DNA from: Rhodococcus sp. KRD197
Lineage (GTDB): Bacteria; Actinomycetota; Actinomycetes; Mycobacteriales; Mycobacteriaceae
Assembly (NCBI RefSeq): GCF_017168235.1
Contig: NZ_JABFAO010000072.1
Location: 1 to 64,000, forward strand
Length of the DNA: 64,000 nt
Direction: 5' to 3'
The notes under the pieces were generated by a model. It saw only the letters and a list, made by a program, of their open reading frames with translations. It had not been told where the DNA came from and searched no databases. Positions 22,286 through 34,146 of this stretch are shown here, one piece after another. Within the stretch, counting starts at the first letter, position 1. Each line of letters begins with the position of its first letter. A program made the position numbers and the translations under genes.

Positions 22286-22440
22286 ACCGCAATAATGCCT
22301 GCCCTGACGCCGCGGAGTTCGCGCAGCGGGTCGTTGCACCCCGTCACTCGCTGACAGCGAACACACAGCCACCGTCCAGGCTGGCGGAAGTTTGGGTTGT
22401 TCAGATGGTGTCATCAGCAACAGACGCCCTGGAGGTCAAG

Positions 22441-23364
22441 ATGACGCGCAACACCGACCATGAAGTTCACGAGCACGATCGCGGGCTCGGATACGACTTG
22501 AAGACGCTGGTTTCGCGGCGCAAAGCACTGATGTTCTTCGGTGCGGCCGCGGGGACCTCTGCGCTGGCAGCATGTGCCACCGGCACATCGACGAGCACTT
22601 CTGCAGCGGAGACGACGGCGTCCGCCGCCGAGGCCACGACGGACGCGGCCTCGTGTGTGGCGGCTGCGCCGCAGGAGACAGCGGGGCCGTACCCCGGCGA
22701 CGGCAGCAACGGTCCGAACGTGCTGATCGAATCGGGCATCGTCCGTCAGGACATCACGAGCAGTTTCGGGTCGTACACCGGAACAGCGGAGGGTGTGCCG
22801 ACCACGATCGAGCTGACTCTGCAGGATCTCGCCGCCGAATGCTCGCCCGGCGTGGGCATGGCGGTCTATCTGTGGCATTGCGACCGGGACGGCGAATACT
22901 CGCTCTACAGCGAGTCGGTTGCTGATCAGAACTATCTACGCGGAGTCCAGGTCGCGGACGCAACGGGCACGGTGTCCTTCACCTCGATCTTTCCGGCTTG
23001 CTACGCGGGCCGCTGGCCGCACATTCACTTCGAGGTCTTCGACTCGCTCGAAGCAGCAGTCGCAGGTGAGAACGCTCGTTTGACCTCGCAGATAGCCATT
23101 CCGCAGGACGCGTGCACGACGGTATTCGACTACGACTCCGGGTATTCCCGCAGCATCTCGAACCTGGCCCAGGTGTCCCTCGAATCGGACAACGTGTTCG
23201 GGGACGGCTGGGACGCCGAACTGGCCACGGTGAGCGGGACCCCAGACACCGCGATGGCGCTCTCCATCACGATCGGCGTGGCCGAGAAGTCGGCGAACAC
23301 TGCCGCCGCCCCACCGTCGGGCGGACCAGGCGGCGGCCAACCACCGGAGGGTGGACAGCGCTGA
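22441..23364 (+). CDS. Exported lipoprotein with intradiol ring-cleavage dioxygenase fold
   Basis: Predicted Tat-dependent lipoprotein of 307 residues. The signal has SRRKALMFFG near residue 25 and a lipobox ALAAC near residue 40, followed by a Ser/Thr/Ala-rich linker. The mature domain matches the dioxygenase_C (protocatechuate 3,4-dioxygenase-like) fold. AVYLWHCDRDGEYSLYS carries candidate Tyr/His ligands and CYAGRWPHIHFEVF has the His-x-His pair. The C-terminus is a flexible Gly/Pro tail. GGAGG stands 4 bases before ATG 22441. Secreted members of this family are common in actinobacteria and fungi but have few known substrates. Confidence 0.82.
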   Translation: MTRNTDHEVHEHDRGLGYDLKTLVSRRKALMFFGAAAGTSALAACATGTSTSTSAAETTASAAEATTDAASCVAAAPQETAGPYPGDGSNGPNVLIESGIVRQDITSSFGSYTGTAEGVPTTIELTLQDLAAECSPGVGMAVYLWHCDRDGEYSLYSESVADQNYLRGVQVADATGTVSFTSIFPACYAGRWPHIHFEVFDSLEAAVAGENARLTSQIAIPQDACTTVFDYDSGYSRSISNLAQVSLESDNVFGDGWDAELATVSGTPDTAMALSITIGVAEKSANTAAAPPSGGPGGGQPPEGGQR

Positions 23365-24790: not shown

Positions 24791-25462
24791 ATGGCAGCGC
24801 ACTTACGGTCTCGATCGATGTTGCTGTTTCTGTCGTTCGGCGCGGGTGCAACCGATGCGTTCGCGTTCCTGGCGTTGGGTGGCATTTTCACCGCCAACAT
24901 GACGGGCAATCTTGTGCTCGTCGGGCTTGTGGGTCGCGAGGATTATGTTCATACGCTCATCGGGGCGTCGGTGGCGATCGCAGTGTTCTTCGCGGTGCTG
25001 TTCGCCGGATTCCGGAGTGCGTACCGCGACGGTGCTTCTGCGGCGCGCACGACCATGTGGATGCTCGGGGTGGCTGCGTCGATGCAGTGCGCGGCGGTGG
25101 CAGGGTGGTGGACTCTGGGCGGCCCGACCGACACTGTCCTGGTCGGGGGGCTCATTTCGCTGTCCGCCGCTGCGATGGCGCTGCAGACGGTGGTTGCGCG
25201 CACCTCGACGGTGGGTGGTGGGTTGTCGACGACCTTCGTGACGGGAACGCTCGTCAACATCGTCGACGATCTCGCTCGCGGTGATCACCGCTACCTGGTG
25301 CTGCGGATGGGTGCGATCGTGGCCCTGGTGATCGGGGCGTTCGTCGGTGCTCTCGCGATTCTGGTCGCGCCCGCACTGGGACCGGTGGTGCCGGCAGTGA
25401 CGGGGTGCGCTGCGTTCGCGATCAGCGTTGGCGCCGTGCGTCGTCTCCGGCACCCGCAGTAG
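24791..25462 (+). CDS. DUF1275 (YoaK-like) membrane protein
   Basis: A 223-residue integral membrane protein with about six helices. The family signature is near the start: AGATDAFAFLALGGIFTANM, then TGNLVLVG, residues ~17-44. A matching pattern GLSTTFVTGTLVN occurs in the second half. DUF1275 proteins have no settled function; a transporter role is assumed. Its stop lies immediately before a strong hairpin shared with the convergent gene. Confidence 0.86.
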   Translation: MAAHLRSRSMLLFLSFGAGATDAFAFLALGGIFTANMTGNLVLVGLVGREDYVHTLIGASVAIAVFFAVLFAGFRSAYRDGASAARTTMWMLGVAASMQCAAVAGWWTLGGPTDTVLVGGLISLSAAAMALQTVVARTSTVGGGLSTTFVTGTLVNIVDDLARGDHRYLVLRMGAIVALVIGAFVGALAILVAPALGPVVPAVTGCAAFAISVGAVRRLRHPQ

Positions 25463-25497
25463 CGCGGCCGGGTGCCCGTTCGCCACACCCGGCCGCG
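25463..25497. terminator. Bidirectional terminator hairpin
   Basis: CGCGGCCGGGTG (25463-25474) and CACCCGGCCGCG (25486-25497) form a perfect 12-bp GC-rich stem with an 11-base loop between two convergent genes. No T-tract is visible, as is usual in actinobacteria. Confidence 0.75.
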
Positions 25498-25507
25498 TCG
25501 GCCTGCG

Positions 25508-27574
25508 TCAGTTGCTGGTTTGGGCGGTCCCGTCGGGCAAGCGCCCAGTGCCCCAGCTGCGTTCGATGTACCCGATGACGCTGTCGACCGCGGCGGTCGG
25601 CACCTTCTCCGGTTCGCCGTTCTCGAGCGGATCGGTGTGGAAAATGTAGAGACGAGAAGCAAACTGTTCGAACGGCAGTGAACCTTCGCCGGCCTTTTCG
25701 CCGTTTCCTGCGGTTCCGACGACGACTCCGTCGCCCCAGTCCTGACCGCTGTCGTTGTTGGGGTTGAAGAAGAACACTCGCATGACGCCGTCCGGGTCCG
25801 GGGCGACACGCAGGATGGTGATGGCATGCCAACCGATGTAGCGGGCTGCGCTGTCGGTGACGGCGATGCCGGCCGGCTGCGGGTGGATCAGTGGCTGGCC
25901 ACCGTTGTACGCGGGGTGGTACGACGAGTGGAATTGCCGGATGAAGTCGTCGAGGTCGATCAGGTTTCCGGTCGCTACATCGACGTTGATGTGGAATCCG
26001 CGCGCCGACCACCACCCGTGAAACTCGGGATTGACCCAGCGGTGCGGATCCCCGGGACGATCCGCGCAACGGCGACCCATCTCGGCATAGATCCGGTCGA
26101 GGTGGGGAACGAGCAGCTGCGAGACGGGGTCGAGGTCGATCGGCGAGGCTGTCGCGACGCCGCTTGCACTGTCCTTGGATGAGATCGGCTGACCTTCGAA
26201 GTGCATCACGATCTCGTCGTCTCGGGCCGCCCAGACGACCATCTGCAGCAGGTAGTCCGGGTCGTTGTACGACCACATGGACAGCGCTCGCGCCGACTGG
26301 CAGGTGGGATTGTCGCCCTGTCCGACGCCGAGCGGCTGGCCCAGCATCGAGATCAACCCGCCGAGCAGCCGAGCTTCCGGCTGGGGCGTCGGCCCGAACA
26401 GATCGATGAGCCGCTGCCGCACTCCGGGTTCGAGTTTCAGGTGCATCTGACGCCACAGCGACGGGACGATGGGCGGCTGATGCAGAACTCCGCGATCGAG
26501 CAGAAGTGCGATGCCGTACAGGCACTGCGCTGCTTCCGGGTGCACGGCCGCGGTGACGAGACTGTGCACCAGCTCCGGATAGCGCTGTAGGCAGGTCCGA
26601 CCGGTTTCCGATACGCCGAGCGCTTCGCCGAGCAGGTACGGATTGTTGTCGATGAGGAAGCGCGCCAACGTCGCGTGGTACGGCGAGACCAGGCCGGTGT
26701 CGTGCATCGCGCGGGCGAATCCGCGGGCCTCGAACTCGAGGTCCTCGGCATCCATGACCTCGAGTCTGGAGCGGTAGACCTCGACGCCGGGGTCCTCCCG
26801 GCAGGCCTCGGTGGGGCCGAACAGGGCGGAGATCAGTCGATCGAGGCCCTGCCCGGATGCGCCGAGGTCGACATTCGGATCACCGCGGTACACGGCGATC
26901 CGAGTGACGATGGCCTTGACGTGGTCGACCTGGATGGGACGCTGACGCAGTACGCGCCAGATCTCTTCGCCGAGCTCGTCGAGCACGCTGTCGTACCCGA
27001 TCTCCTCGGCGATATAGCTGAAGAGATCGCGAACGAGATGTGCCATTCGACCGAGCCGAACGCGTTCGGCCTCGGACGGCGGCGAGAACAGAACCTCGAG
27101 GTTCATCGCCAGTACCTGCGACAGGAATCGCCTCGCGTCCTCGGCGCTCAGGGCCGGATGCTCGTACTCACCGGCGATGATCGCGAGCATCCTGAGCTCG
27201 CTGGTTGCCTCGAGAACAACGGTGTCGACGTTGCCGCTGCGCAGACTCGTCCCGACGAACGAGGGGACGAGAATGTCCGGATGCGCCCAGTCCGAACCCA
27301 GGAACAACCCGGCGGCCTCCAGTGCTGCGGCGCGTTTGCGCACCGCAGCGAACCCTCCTGGCTGCATCAGCACTCGCTGCAGCGAGTCGATGACGCGTCG
27401 CAACTTCGTGTTCTTGGAGAAGTCCGGCGCAGCCGCCATCGACTCGGCTGCATTGTCGAGCTGGGCCAGTCGTGTCTGCAGCGCAGGGTCGATCTCTTGC
27501 CCGCGCTCGGCGGGTTCGTCGGAGTTCATCGTCTGCGACACCTCACTGAGTCCGTTCCCGAGGTTTTGCCTCAC
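25508..27574 (-). CDS. Unrecognised 688-residue protein with papain-like Cys-His-Asn pattern
   Basis: I do not recognise a named family. The first ~400 residues are alpha-helical and rich in Leu, Arg and Glu, without membrane segments or signal. The C-terminal third has a papain-like order. GVGQGDNPTCQSARALSMW puts Gln419 six residues before Cys425, the papain Gln19/Cys25 spacing. GWHAITILRV then gives His583, and FFFNPNNDSGQDWG gives Asn604/Asn606. Aromatic-rich WVNPEFHGWW and FHINVDVATGNLIDL lie between. The gene starts at GTG 27574 overlapping the stop of the ATP-grasp gene, or at ATG 27529 (673 residues). Tight coupling suggests that one protein processes the product or substrate of the other. 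The protease assignment is inference. Confidence 0.7.
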   Translation of the reverse strand: MRQNLGNGLSEVSQTMNSDEPAERGQEIDPALQTRLAQLDNAAESMAAAPDFSKNTKLRRVIDSLQRVLMQPGGFAAVRKRAAALEAAGLFLGSDWAHPDILVPSFVGTSLRSGNVDTVVLEATSELRMLAIIAGEYEHPALSAEDARRFLSQVLAMNLEVLFSPPSEAERVRLGRMAHLVRDLFSYIAEEIGYDSVLDELGEEIWRVLRQRPIQVDHVKAIVTRIAVYRGDPNVDLGASGQGLDRLISALFGPTEACREDPGVEVYRSRLEVMDAEDLEFEARGFARAMHDTGLVSPYHATLARFLIDNNPYLLGEALGVSETGRTCLQRYPELVHSLVTAAVHPEAAQCLYGIALLLDRGVLHQPPIVPSLWRQMHLKLEPGVRQRLIDLFGPTPQPEARLLGGLISMLGQPLGVGQGDNPTCQSARALSMWSYNDPDYLLQMVVWAARDDEIVMHFEGQPISSKDSASGVATASPIDLDPVSQLLVPHLDRIYAEMGRRCADRPGDPHRWVNPEFHGWWSARGFHINVDVATGNLIDLDDFIRQFHSSYHPAYNGGQPLIHPQPAGIAVTDSAARYIGWHAITILRVAPDPDGVMRVFFFNPNNDSGQDWGDGVVVGTAGNGEKAGEGSLPFEQFASRLYIFHTDPLENGEPEKVPTAAVDSVIGYIERSWGTGRLPDGTAQTSN

Positions 27575-28812
27575 ACGTAGAAGTCCAGTTCTTCCTGACG
27601 CTTGAGCAGGTCACGCATGACGTAAGGGTCCTCGCCGAAGAAGTACAGCAGACCCCAGTGCGTACCGAATGCGGTGCGCTTGGTGACGGTCTCCTCCAAC
27701 GGCGCTGCGAGGTCGTTGGTCTCGTAGTAGTCGTGGTCGGCGGTTTCCTCGGGGATCTCGAGGTTGCTCACCACGCGTCGGCGGGGGTAGACGCCGAAGC
27801 ATCCGGCGGTGCCGTGGGCGTCGACGACCTCGCGGGGGAAGAACGCGTCGATCTCTTCCTCGGTGGTCTTCGGGTCGAACGCCAGCACGAGCCCCTGGTA
27901 GGCGTTGAAGCCGTAGGCGCGCTCGAGCAGCTCGAAGACCTTGAAGCCCGGTGGCCGGTACGCCACCTCGCCGAAGTACATTTCGCCGTCGCTCGTGACG
28001 AAGTACTCCGGGTGGATGAACCCGAACTCGATGTCGAAGGCCTTGATGAGCTTCTCGATCTGCGCGGTGATCGCCGGACGGTATTTCTCGAGTTCCGGTG
28101 TCGCGGGCACGAACACCGAGTATCCGAGCGTGACGTACTCCGAGATGTTGAGGAACTTGATCTTGCCCTTGTGAATCCACGCCTCGACAGCGAATTCCCA
28201 ACCGTCGAGGTGCGATTCCATCAGCACCGGGAACTCGTCGTCGGGGATGGAGTCGACCTCGTCCGGCGTGCGAATGACGCGGTGCCCGAGGCATCCGGCC
28301 TTGTCGAAGGCCTTGAGGTGGATGGGGTCGTTGGGGTCGCCGTCGAGCTTGAGCAGCGTTTGATTGACGCGCCGCAGGAACCGGATGACGTCCTCGCGGT
28401 CGTGGGCTTCTTCGAAGATGCCGACACGGATACCGCCGAGCTGCGCGCGTCGCTTCATCAGCGCCTTGTCGCGCAGGAGCATGGCTTGACCGAACAACCG
28501 CGGGTTACCGAGCAGCACCGAGTTGATTGCGCCGGCCCACTCCACCGTCTCCTCGTACAGCGGGATCGCGACGTCGACGCCCTTGTCCTGCAGCGTCTCG
28601 GCGATCTCGAGGGACCGGTCGTTGAGTCGTTCGAAGTTCCATGGCAGGAACGGGATGTTGTTTTCGGTGCAGTACTGCTCGGCCCACTCCGGAGCGACGA
28701 CCAGGTACCGACGGTCGAACTTGTCCAAAGCTTCCACCGCTGCCAGGCTCCAGCCCAACAGTGCTACGTAGCCCTTTTCCGGATTCTTCTCCAGGCGTGC
28801 GGGCTGCGGCAT
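27571..28812 (-). CDS. ATP-grasp ligase
   Basis: A carboxylate-amine (or thiol) ligase fold of 413 residues. The N-terminal pre-ATP-grasp part is YVALLGWSLAAVEALDKFDR. The ATP-binding half includes LRDKALMKRRA (~113-123), LKAFDKAGCLGHRV (~167-179), PVLMESHLDGWEFAVE (~195-210) with the Glu pair, and GFIHPEYFVTSDGEMYFGEV (~264-283). The R in AYRPPG (residue 286) replaces the usual Arg loop. A C-terminal region of about 110 residues ends LKRQEELDFYV. AAAGGA lies 5-6 bases before ATG 28812. It overlaps and is upstream of the papain-like gene, and diverges from a NUDIX gene. The substrates are unknown; the D-Ala-D-Ala ligase/biotin carboxylase fold predicts amide formation through an acyl phosphate. 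Confidence 0.84.
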   Translation of the reverse strand: MPQPARLEKNPEKGYVALLGWSLAAVEALDKFDRRYLVVAPEWAEQYCTENNIPFLPWNFERLNDRSLEIAETLQDKGVDVAIPLYEETVEWAGAINSVLLGNPRLFGQAMLLRDKALMKRRAQLGGIRVGIFEEAHDREDVIRFLRRVNQTLLKLDGDPNDPIHLKAFDKAGCLGHRVIRTPDEVDSIPDDEFPVLMESHLDGWEFAVEAWIHKGKIKFLNISEYVTLGYSVFVPATPELEKYRPAITAQIEKLIKAFDIEFGFIHPEYFVTSDGEMYFGEVAYRPPGFKVFELLERAYGFNAYQGLVLAFDPKTTEEEIDAFFPREVVDAHGTAGCFGVYPRRRVVSNLEIPEETADHDYYETNDLAAPLEETVTKRTAFGTHWGLLYFFGEDPYVMRDLLKRQEELDFYV

Positions 28813-28926
28813 ACAGGTCCTTTCCATCGATTTTTTCAGGTCAGGTCGTCTTACACCGTACATAGGTCGCCGATTCGCCTGCGCGGCGTCGGGTGCGACC
28901 CGGCCCGGCAGTGGTGCAATCGAACA

Positions 28927-29382
28927 ATGCCGAAACACAGCGCCGGCCTGCTGCCGTACCGATTTCGCGACGGGGTGGTGGAGGTGTTGATCGGGCACCC
29001 CGGCGGGCCGTTCTGGGCGCGCAAGGACGACGGGGTGTGGTCGGTGATCAAAGGCGAGTACACCGACGAGGATCCCCTGGTCGCGGCGCGGCGAGAGTTC
29101 CGGGAGGAAACCGGACTCGAGCTACCCGACGGCGAGGCCGTGGCCCTGCCCGTGATTCGCCAGCGCGGCGGCAAAGTGGTGACGGTGTTCGCGGTCGAGG
29201 CAGATATCGAGGTCGACGGCGCAGTGAGCAATACCTTCGAGATGGAGTGGCCACCGCGGTCTGGGAAGAAGCAATCGTTCCCGGAGCTCGATCGGATCGA
29301 GTGGTGCAGCGTGGAGCGTGCGCGCATCAAGCTGTTGGCGGCGCAGGCTGCACTGCTCGACGCGCTGCCGCCGAGTAGTTGA
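28927..29382 (+). CDS. NUDIX hydrolase
   Basis: Cleaves a nucleoside diphosphate linked to another group. The NUDIX box spans residues ~43-65 as GEYTDEDPLVAAR plus REFREETGLEL, with every key Gly, Arg and Glu. It begins SAGLLPYRFRDG and HPGGPFWARKDDGVWS, the subgroup found widely in actinobacteria. It is 151 residues. The gene diverges from the ATP-grasp gene across a 114-base gap; shared regulation is possible but not shown. The substrate cannot be deduced; a dinucleotide polyphosphate or oxidised nucleotide is plausible. Confidence 0.92.
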   Translation: MPKHSAGLLPYRFRDGVVEVLIGHPGGPFWARKDDGVWSVIKGEYTDEDPLVAARREFREETGLELPDGEAVALPVIRQRGGKVVTVFAVEADIEVDGAVSNTFEMEWPPRSGKKQSFPELDRIEWCSVERARIKLLAAQAALLDALPPSS

Positions 29383-29425
29383 CTCTTGACTGAGCGAGCA
29401 CGAACGTGTCAGTCTTCTCACCACC

Positions 29426-32676: not shown

Positions 32677-34146
32677 GTGAATGCGCCTGACGATCCAGTT
32701 GGTTTCCGTAGTCTCGTCGATCTCCTCGAATACTTCCGAGACACCGACGTCGATGAGCGCACGTGGTTGGCGTTGGTTCAGAGTCTTCTCCGCTGGGCTG
32801 TCGGACACAGTCCCAGCGCAGAAGTATGGAAACTATTGGCGGCGGAGCCGCAGTTCGAGGACTTTCGACTGGCCGTACAGGCCGATGTCTATGCGTTGTT
32901 GTCCGGTCCTGACTGTGACCGGAACAGTACTTTTATCGATGCTGCAACTATTGTTCGGCTGAGTGCTGGGCTACCGCGACACCTCGATGTTTGGTCGAAT
33001 AGCTCGTACGAGAATGCAGTCGAGGCAATCGCCGCTCACGCGATCGCGTGCACGGTCGACGCAGAGTTTTCGAACACGTTCGAGGAATGGTTTCGTGCCG
33101 AAATCCATGTAGACGTTGCACGTGACCGCGTATACCCCGTTGCGCGGTACAACCCCAAGCGATTCATCGGCGGGCATTCGGCCAACACCAAACCGTCCAA
33201 ATTGCCATCGCGAGCACTGGATTGCACCGAACATCTTGGGCTGGGGGACAGGCGGACAACGGCCTACGGGCTAGTCATCGACTACGAACACTGGCACCAT
33301 CTCGCTCCCCTGAGTGAGACTGAGCAGCTTAAAATCGCAGCGGCTCAGCCGAACATGAGCTTGTCCGAGTACGACATCCAGGAAGGTCCGAATGGGAAAG
33401 TTCGGAACTGCGGCCCTTCTGATCCGGATCGGCAACACCGGCGGTTGGTGGAGATCGTTCGCCACTCGGCCGACTCGGGAGTCGATGTGCTGGTGTTGCC
33501 CGAGTACTCCTTGCACAGCAAACACCGCAATGAGTTACAGCGATCAGTTGACGACTTGGCTGTCGCGCCGCCGAGCTTGATCGTCGCCGGTACAAGCGAA
33601 GTCCATGATGGACACGGGAGCGACCGCATCGAGAACCATGCGTGGCTGATGGTGGCAGGTGGTTACGGGTCCAGTCAGGGCAAAGTGTTCGCTGCAGAGA
33701 TGTCCGGACACATGGAAGGAATCGAGCCTGTCGGTTCGGTTCGAATCATCCGGTCAGAGGAGTGGACGATTGCGGTCCTGATCTGTAGGGACGCTATGTC
33801 CCCGGACTTGGTTGATCTGCTCAGCCGCTGCGGTGTCAACCTGCTCCTCGTGCCGGCATTTTCGGAAAGAACGGCGACTATCATCGGCCAAGCCACTTCG
33901 TTGAGTATTCGCAGCCAGGCGTTTGTCGCCGTTGCGGTCGGACCGGCTGTGTGGACCAACGACGCTGTTGAGGACAGGCCGCAGGACCCGACACGAGTGG
34001 AAGCTGCATTCAGTGGGCCGTACGAAGTGCCTCCGTCCGTCGTCTCTCTCCCGCCAGAGGGATTCAACAGGACTTCGGGTCGGGGACTGTGGGTCTTCGA
34101 CGCAGTCTCGCGCACTACAGAATGGTTGGAAGTCCGCTCTGAATAA
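32677..34146 (+). CDS. Nitrilase-superfamily (carbon-nitrogen hydrolase) protein with unknown N-terminal domain
   Basis: A 489-residue protein. Residues ~1-210 match nothing I recognise; they are helical, with several Trp and His residues. Residues ~217-425 have the nitrilase fold with a complete triad: Glu276 in VLVLPEYSL, Lys336 in SSQGKVFAAE, Cys370 in VLICRDAMS. The start is GTG 32677; no membrane segment or signal is seen. Codon use is clearly less GC-rich than the flanking operons, and it sits between a fatty-acid operon and the BCKDH operon with a coiled-coil winged-helix gene 47 bases on. Defence-type reverse transcriptases can carry nitrilase domains, but no reverse transcriptase is present here. 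The substrate and role are unknown. Confidence 0.78.
   Translation: MNAPDDPVGFRSLVDLLEYFRDTDVDERTWLALVQSLLRWAVGHSPSAEVWKLLAAEPQFEDFRLAVQADVYALLSGPDCDRNSTFIDAATIVRLSAGLPRHLDVWSNSSYENAVEAIAAHAIACTVDAEFSNTFEEWFRAEIHVDVARDRVYPVARYNPKRFIGGHSANTKPSKLPSRALDCTEHLGLGDRRTTAYGLVIDYEHWHHLAPLSETEQLKIAAAQPNMSLSEYDIQEGPNGKVRNCGPSDPDRQHRRLVEIVRHSADSGVDVLVLPEYSLHSKHRNELQRSVDDLAVAPPSLIVAGTSEVHDGHGSDRIENHAWLMVAGGYGSSQGKVFAAEMSGHMEGIEPVGSVRIIRSEEWTIAVLICRDAMSPDLVDLLSRCGVNLLLVPAFSERTATIIGQATSLSIRSQAFVAVAVGPAVWTNDAVEDRPQDPTRVEAAFSGPYEVPPSVVSLPPEGFNRTSGRGLWVFDAVSRTTEWLEVRSE

Follow-up and report, generated by a model that had tools for sequence, protein, structure and literature searches.

What is the function of an ATP-grasp ligase whose gene is constantly followed by that of a protein of no named family? 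The question is raised by two minus-strand genes, gene 1 and gene 2, in a stretch of 64,000 nucleotides (hereafter the window; positions 1 to 64,000 of contig NZ_JABFAO010000072.1) from the 5.56-Mb genome of Rhodococcus sp. KRD197. The initial annotation, made from the letters alone, considered gene 1 to encode an ATP-grasp ligase and recognized in the product of gene 2 a Gln-Cys-His-Asn set in the order of papain; one enzyme was proposed to form an amide and the other to cleave or transfer it. That interpretation is partly supported. We regard the pair, with a probability of about one half, as a cytosolic cassette of two genes, self-contained, horizontally moving and devoted to one amide chemistry, combining an amide-forming with an amide-cleaving or amide-transferring enzyme. 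This reading draws directly on the gene pair, its coupling, the invariant residues, the predicted ATP-grasp fold and trees that indicate transfer of both genes.

Co-occurrence and adjacency of the two genes were without exception in the loci examined. These comprised 93 gene 2 loci (the best 80 of 550 stretches and 13 from genome searches), the window included and the same species possibly repeated. Gene 1 was located directly upstream of gene 2 on the same strand in all 93, although a contig end cuts gene 1 in two of them (L074 and L092), and no homologue of gene 2 without the ATP-grasp gene was encountered. When each gene was searched for separately in 249 genomes of the order Mycobacteriales, the identical eight genomes were obtained; a further genus from the window's class, represented by 246 genomes, likewise yielded the identical three. 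The genes adjoin in all 11. The pair is not confined to Mycobacteriales and occurs far beyond this order. Gene 2 alone was detected in 34 of 101 relatives (30 of 37 in the genus) and in 4 of 396 genomes of a phylum sample. Pairwise protein distances of the two genes correlate at 0.89 (92 pairs), although common descent by itself would also produce such a relation; gene 1 evolves less than half as fast as gene 2 (0.113 versus 0.256). Strict coupling and correlated distances are as compatible with a physical complex as with a shared substrate, and gene 2 might then be a protease or regulator controlling the ligase itself, or a maturation factor, instead of an enzyme of the ligase product. This is very unlikely, the invariant active-site set of gene 2 (see below) exceeding the need of a pure scaffold.

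In 80 loci, taken with up to 7 kb per side, open reading frame calls revealed gene 1 in all of them, gene 2 in 78 and the next most frequent family in only 14. As only the two genes recur widely, a larger operon or gene cluster was rejected; genes for transporters, carrier proteins or amino-acid enzymes are not widely recurrent neighbors of the pair in these loci. At least one of the six genes flanking the pair in the window recurs in 10 of the 80 loci, namely in 6 of 18 from Rhodococcus or Rhodococcoides (61-91 % identity) and, as weak matches, in four others. The flanks being shared in so few loci, the pair has no single location, even in Rhodococcus. The copy in Halomonas PA16-9 has different neighbors: a DUF1820 gene, an rRNA-methyltransferase-like gene (S4 and FtsJ domains) and a gene for a mechanosensitive channel.

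Phylogenetic trees point to movement over longer distances. In the tree of gene 2 (31 rows, midpoint root), the Acidimicrobiia cluster at 100/100 with two alphaproteobacteria, Roseospira and Roseospirillum. Outside the actinobacterial group, also at 100/100, Methylohalobius and Competibacteraceae are joined by two loci from genomes of the window's own family (L095 and L096; genomes 100 % complete, at most 1 % contaminated). In the tree of gene 1 (28 rows, without Methylohalobius and Competibacteraceae), the Acidimicrobiia are again joined to the alphaproteobacteria (98/94), and L095 and L096 again fall outside the actinobacterial group, here without a supported partner. From the two trees, transfer of the pair as a whole between phyla, on two occasions or more, is probable.

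The prediction that gene 1 encodes an ATP-grasp ligase of the amide-forming kind is supported. Its product matched the Pfam family ATP-grasp_4 at E 3.6e-5 with 23.9 bits, just below the curated cut-off of 27 bits, and all 49 rows of the gene 1 alignment (the window protein entered twice) matched this family at E 0.1 or better. An AlphaFold2 model with a predicted local distance difference test score of 79.6 and low-confidence lid loops gave 282 matches to PDB structures at E ≤0.001; the 50 listed ones are all ATP-grasp enzymes. Its nearest folds are dipeptide ligases of the L-amino acid ligase kind, the ATP-grasp dipeptide ligases BacD/YwfE, BL00235 and RizA, at 13-16 % identity, and gene 1 carries R-P-P-G where RizA and BL00235 have R-I-G-G. 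Lys155, Lys167, Glu269 and Glu282 are invariant in the 49 rows; Lys167 aligns with a Lys of 4dim, and the two Glu residues with those of RizA and BL00235. We take the conserved Lys to be ATP-binding and Glu269 and Glu282 to be the first and second metal-site residues. By its predicted fold, gene 1 would be L-amino acid ligase-like, with the joining of two unprotected L-amino acids as candidate activity. BacD/YwfE, BL00235 and RizA are not known to have an obligate papain-like partner.

Gene 2, for which no family had been recognized, has at least 2,591 relatives at E 0.001. No Pfam match was obtained for the window protein or for ten relatives, and no named family in four libraries, the Pfam, PADLOC and PHROG checks included. 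The residues singled out earlier, Gln419-(5)-Cys425, His583 in GWHAITI, and Asn604 and Asn606 in FFFNPNNDSG, are present as written. They are conserved without exception in the 241 aligned rows (one of them the window), which extend to 49 % identity; relatives lacking them were looked for and amounted to 0 of 241. On the evidence of this alignment, conservation of the set is more than chance. The papain order was retained in the predicted structure, with Cys at a helix start and the His and Asn residues placed on, or immediately behind, two consecutive strands, and the predicted strand order of the C-terminal half is that of papain. Among the matches listed, the sole structural ones for this half are the peptidases papain C1, calpain C2 and bleomycin hydrolase, which have the order Gln, Cys, His, Asn in common with gene 2. 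Gene 2 differs from them in its lack of a sequence-profile match, in its N-terminal helical arm and in being without a hydrophobic export-like stretch. A simple hydropathy test revealed no hydrophobic segment as strong as a membrane span in either protein, so that a secreted protease is unlikely.

The papain-like core is the least secure part of the annotation. The structural matches to papain-like folds were low-scoring, and comparison with the papain profile gave a score of 16.1, equal to the mean for shuffled columns (16.1; maximum, 28.1); the N-terminal half scored 13.6 and ATP-grasp 20.4, the query alignment containing only 2.1 effective sequences. Peptidase_C1 (PF00112) gave no match at E 1 for gene 2 of the window, none at E 10 for ten relatives and none at E 0.001 in its own genome. 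A PDB search with the gene 2 alignment yielded helical designs and PDCD5 only, at E 0.14 or worse. Aspartokinase, the best PDB sequence match (E 0.0055, residues 22-144), was judged to be a chance hit. Papain-like activity of gene 2 is a prediction.

If the pair is an amide cassette, the ATP-grasp enzyme would activate a carboxylate as acyl-phosphate and join the acyl group to an amine, as in L-amino acid ligases. The Cys425-His583-Asn604 center of gene 2 would accept the acyl group as a thioester, for hydrolysis or onward transfer, and the helical arm may bind the substrate or the ligase. Both enzymes would act on the same product, the presumed substrate being either a protein or a small compound (peptide or amide). 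An amide-making ligase combined with an acyl-moving thiol enzyme, to which no carrier protein, transporter or precursor gene is tied, points to a closed cycle acting on some common constituent of the cell.

The glutathionylspermidine synthetase/amidase GspSA unites, in a single fused chain with other domains, a ligase of the ATP-grasp type with a papain-like (CHAP) amidase, both directed at the same amide bond. Here, two separate genes are involved and neither the CHAP nor the GSP synthetase domain was matched in Pfam. In butirosin biosynthesis, the ATP-grasp ligase BtrJ is paired with the papain-like acyltransferase BtrH, a couple that requires a carrier protein and an antibiotic cluster. No carrier protein recurs widely beside the present pair, and gene 2 does not match the BtrH_N domain in Pfam. 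Tubulin tyrosine ligase and vasohibin are an ATP-grasp writer and a papain-like eraser, eukaryotic, of other families and encoded by unlinked genes. Couples of an amide-forming and a papain-like enzyme, whether fused or paired, are already known from these three systems, and the idea of such a pair is not new. BtrH_N is described as related to C39 and C70, and vasohibin as papain-like with a CHS triad (PMC10318531). No description of the gene pair was found in the portions of the literature searched; the 2009 amidoligase survey, the likeliest place, lay outside that search, so the pair cannot be claimed as undescribed.

The arm of gene 2 gave weak structural matches, mostly to helical-repeat proteins, and long helical arms of this type typically serve to bind proteins. 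The ligase might attach an amino acid or peptide to a protein of the cell, from which the partner, guided by the arm, removes it, comparable to tubulin tyrosine ligase and vasohibin. The mean column identity of the ligase, 86 % in the 49 rows, is as expected for an enzyme meeting a conserved protein surface, and the neighborhoods described above, without recurring transporter, carrier or amino-acid enzyme, fit as well. Protein modification is nonetheless rather unlikely: the nearest ligase folds are dipeptide ligases and, with the cassette in so few genomes of the phylum sample, its target would be widespread yet mostly unmodified.

Habitat offers another lead. All 19 non-actinobacterial genera named among the relatives listed (among them Halomonas, Halorhodospira, Methylohalobius, Marinobacter and Alcanivorax) are known from marine, saline or soda habitats; the list is ranked by closeness to a single query, Rhabdothermincola salaria, and most of its rows lack an organism name. 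Several of the species names (salinarum, salifodinae, lacisalsi, marina, halophila) likewise point to salt or sea. These observations hint at a salt link and are a lead, not a test. The pair might produce and turn over a compatible solute, an amide or a dipeptide, in marine and salt-loving bacteria and have been acquired by some soil actinomycetes. In Halomonas PA16-9, the mechanosensitive-channel gene (L100, 12628-14112, minus strand) lies about 0.6 kb beyond gene 2, on the strand opposite to the pair. Amide solutes, namely N-carbamoyl-glutamine amide and N-acetyl-glutaminylglutamine amide, are known from purple sulfur bacteria (PMC7824335). Salt protection is still distinctly unlikely: Rhodococcus is not halophilic, the Competibacteraceae and Polyangiaceae genomes have no obvious fit, and tblastn detected the channel gene in 1 of 87 loci, that of Halomonas PA16-9 itself.

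The layout of the locus is given in Table 1. The 4-base GTGA overlap reported between the genes is present in the DNA at 27571-27574 and is real only with the GTG start of gene 2. This start is uncertain (27529-27574): an in-frame ATG at residue 16 would leave a 41-base gap and no overlap. M16 is nearly invariant in the alignment of relatives, making ATG a candidate equal to GTG. In other genera, the spacing varies from a short overlap to tens of bases, depending on the start chosen. The pair forms a unit of two because the flanking genes, a Nudix gene (28927-29382) and a DUF1275 gene (24791-25462), are both on the plus strand.

Table 1 Features of the gene pair in the window
Feature	Position	Strand	Remarks
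Gene 1	27571-28812	minus	413 aa, ATG start; ATP-grasp ligase, predicted fold nearest L-amino acid ligases
Glu269 codon, gene 1	28006-28008	minus	Invariant; aligned with Glu of RizA and BL00235
Glu282 codon, gene 1 (E-V-A-Y-R motif)	27967-27969	minus	Invariant; aligned with Glu of RizA and BL00235
Gene 2	25508-27574	minus	688 aa from GTG, 673 aa if ATG at residue 16 is the start; unclassified
Gene 2 residues 30-412	26339-27487	minus	All-helical, repeat-like N-terminal arm (structure prediction)
Gene 2 residues 413-650	25625-26338	minus	Putative papain-like half; Cys precedes a helix, His lies on a strand, Asn follows one (prediction, low-scoring matches)
Gln419 codon	26318-26320	minus	241/241 rows; oxyanion-type Gln by analogy
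Cys425 codon	26300-26302	minus	Predicted nucleophile; 241/241 rows; just ahead of helix 426-437
His583 codon	25826-25828	minus	241/241 rows; on strand 579-592
Asn604 codon	25763-25765	minus	Third residue by analogy, Asn606 equally invariant; 241/241 rows; directly after strand 598-603
GTACGGT, -10-like promoter element upstream of gene 1	28855-28861	minus	Conserved across several genera

The motif GTACSGT was present in 53 of 88 upstream regions, from related loci, against 1.8 expected from shuffles; the element also fits a housekeeping -10 box. A SigB-like promoter pattern was seen in 13 of the 88 regions (0.7 expected from shuffles), its weight as a sign of a stress-sigma promoter being unclear as the loci are related. 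A riboswitch or structured RNA was rejected, no Rfam match up to E 1 being found within 25000-29400 of the window. A phage origin was likewise dismissed: tblastn with a distant gene 2 protein gave no match in 50,697 phage records, and PHROG none for either window protein. A defense system was rejected too, the two proteins matching 0 PADLOC families at E 1. Elsewhere in the window, the plus-strand gene at 32677-34146 (489 aa) has no Pfam match at E 0.001 and a C-terminal part that by eye resembles a nitrilase-type hydrolase; that at 22405-23364, also on the plus strand, is intradiol-dioxygenase-like (Pfam Dioxygenase_C), with a putative N-terminal export signal by eye.

The boldest reading would be a self-contained, cross-phylum writer/eraser system, concentrated in salt-adapted bacteria, in which an ATP-grasp ligase and an apparently undescribed papain-like family with a helical arm reversibly attach an amino acid or peptide to a protein or small solute. 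This is unlikely on present evidence; if true, it would be a bacterial counterpart of tubulin tyrosination or a missing route to an amide solute. Two purified proteins could form the whole system, which makes the chemistry directly testable. Should the pair write and erase one bond, a bacterial example would be added to the handful of such couples.
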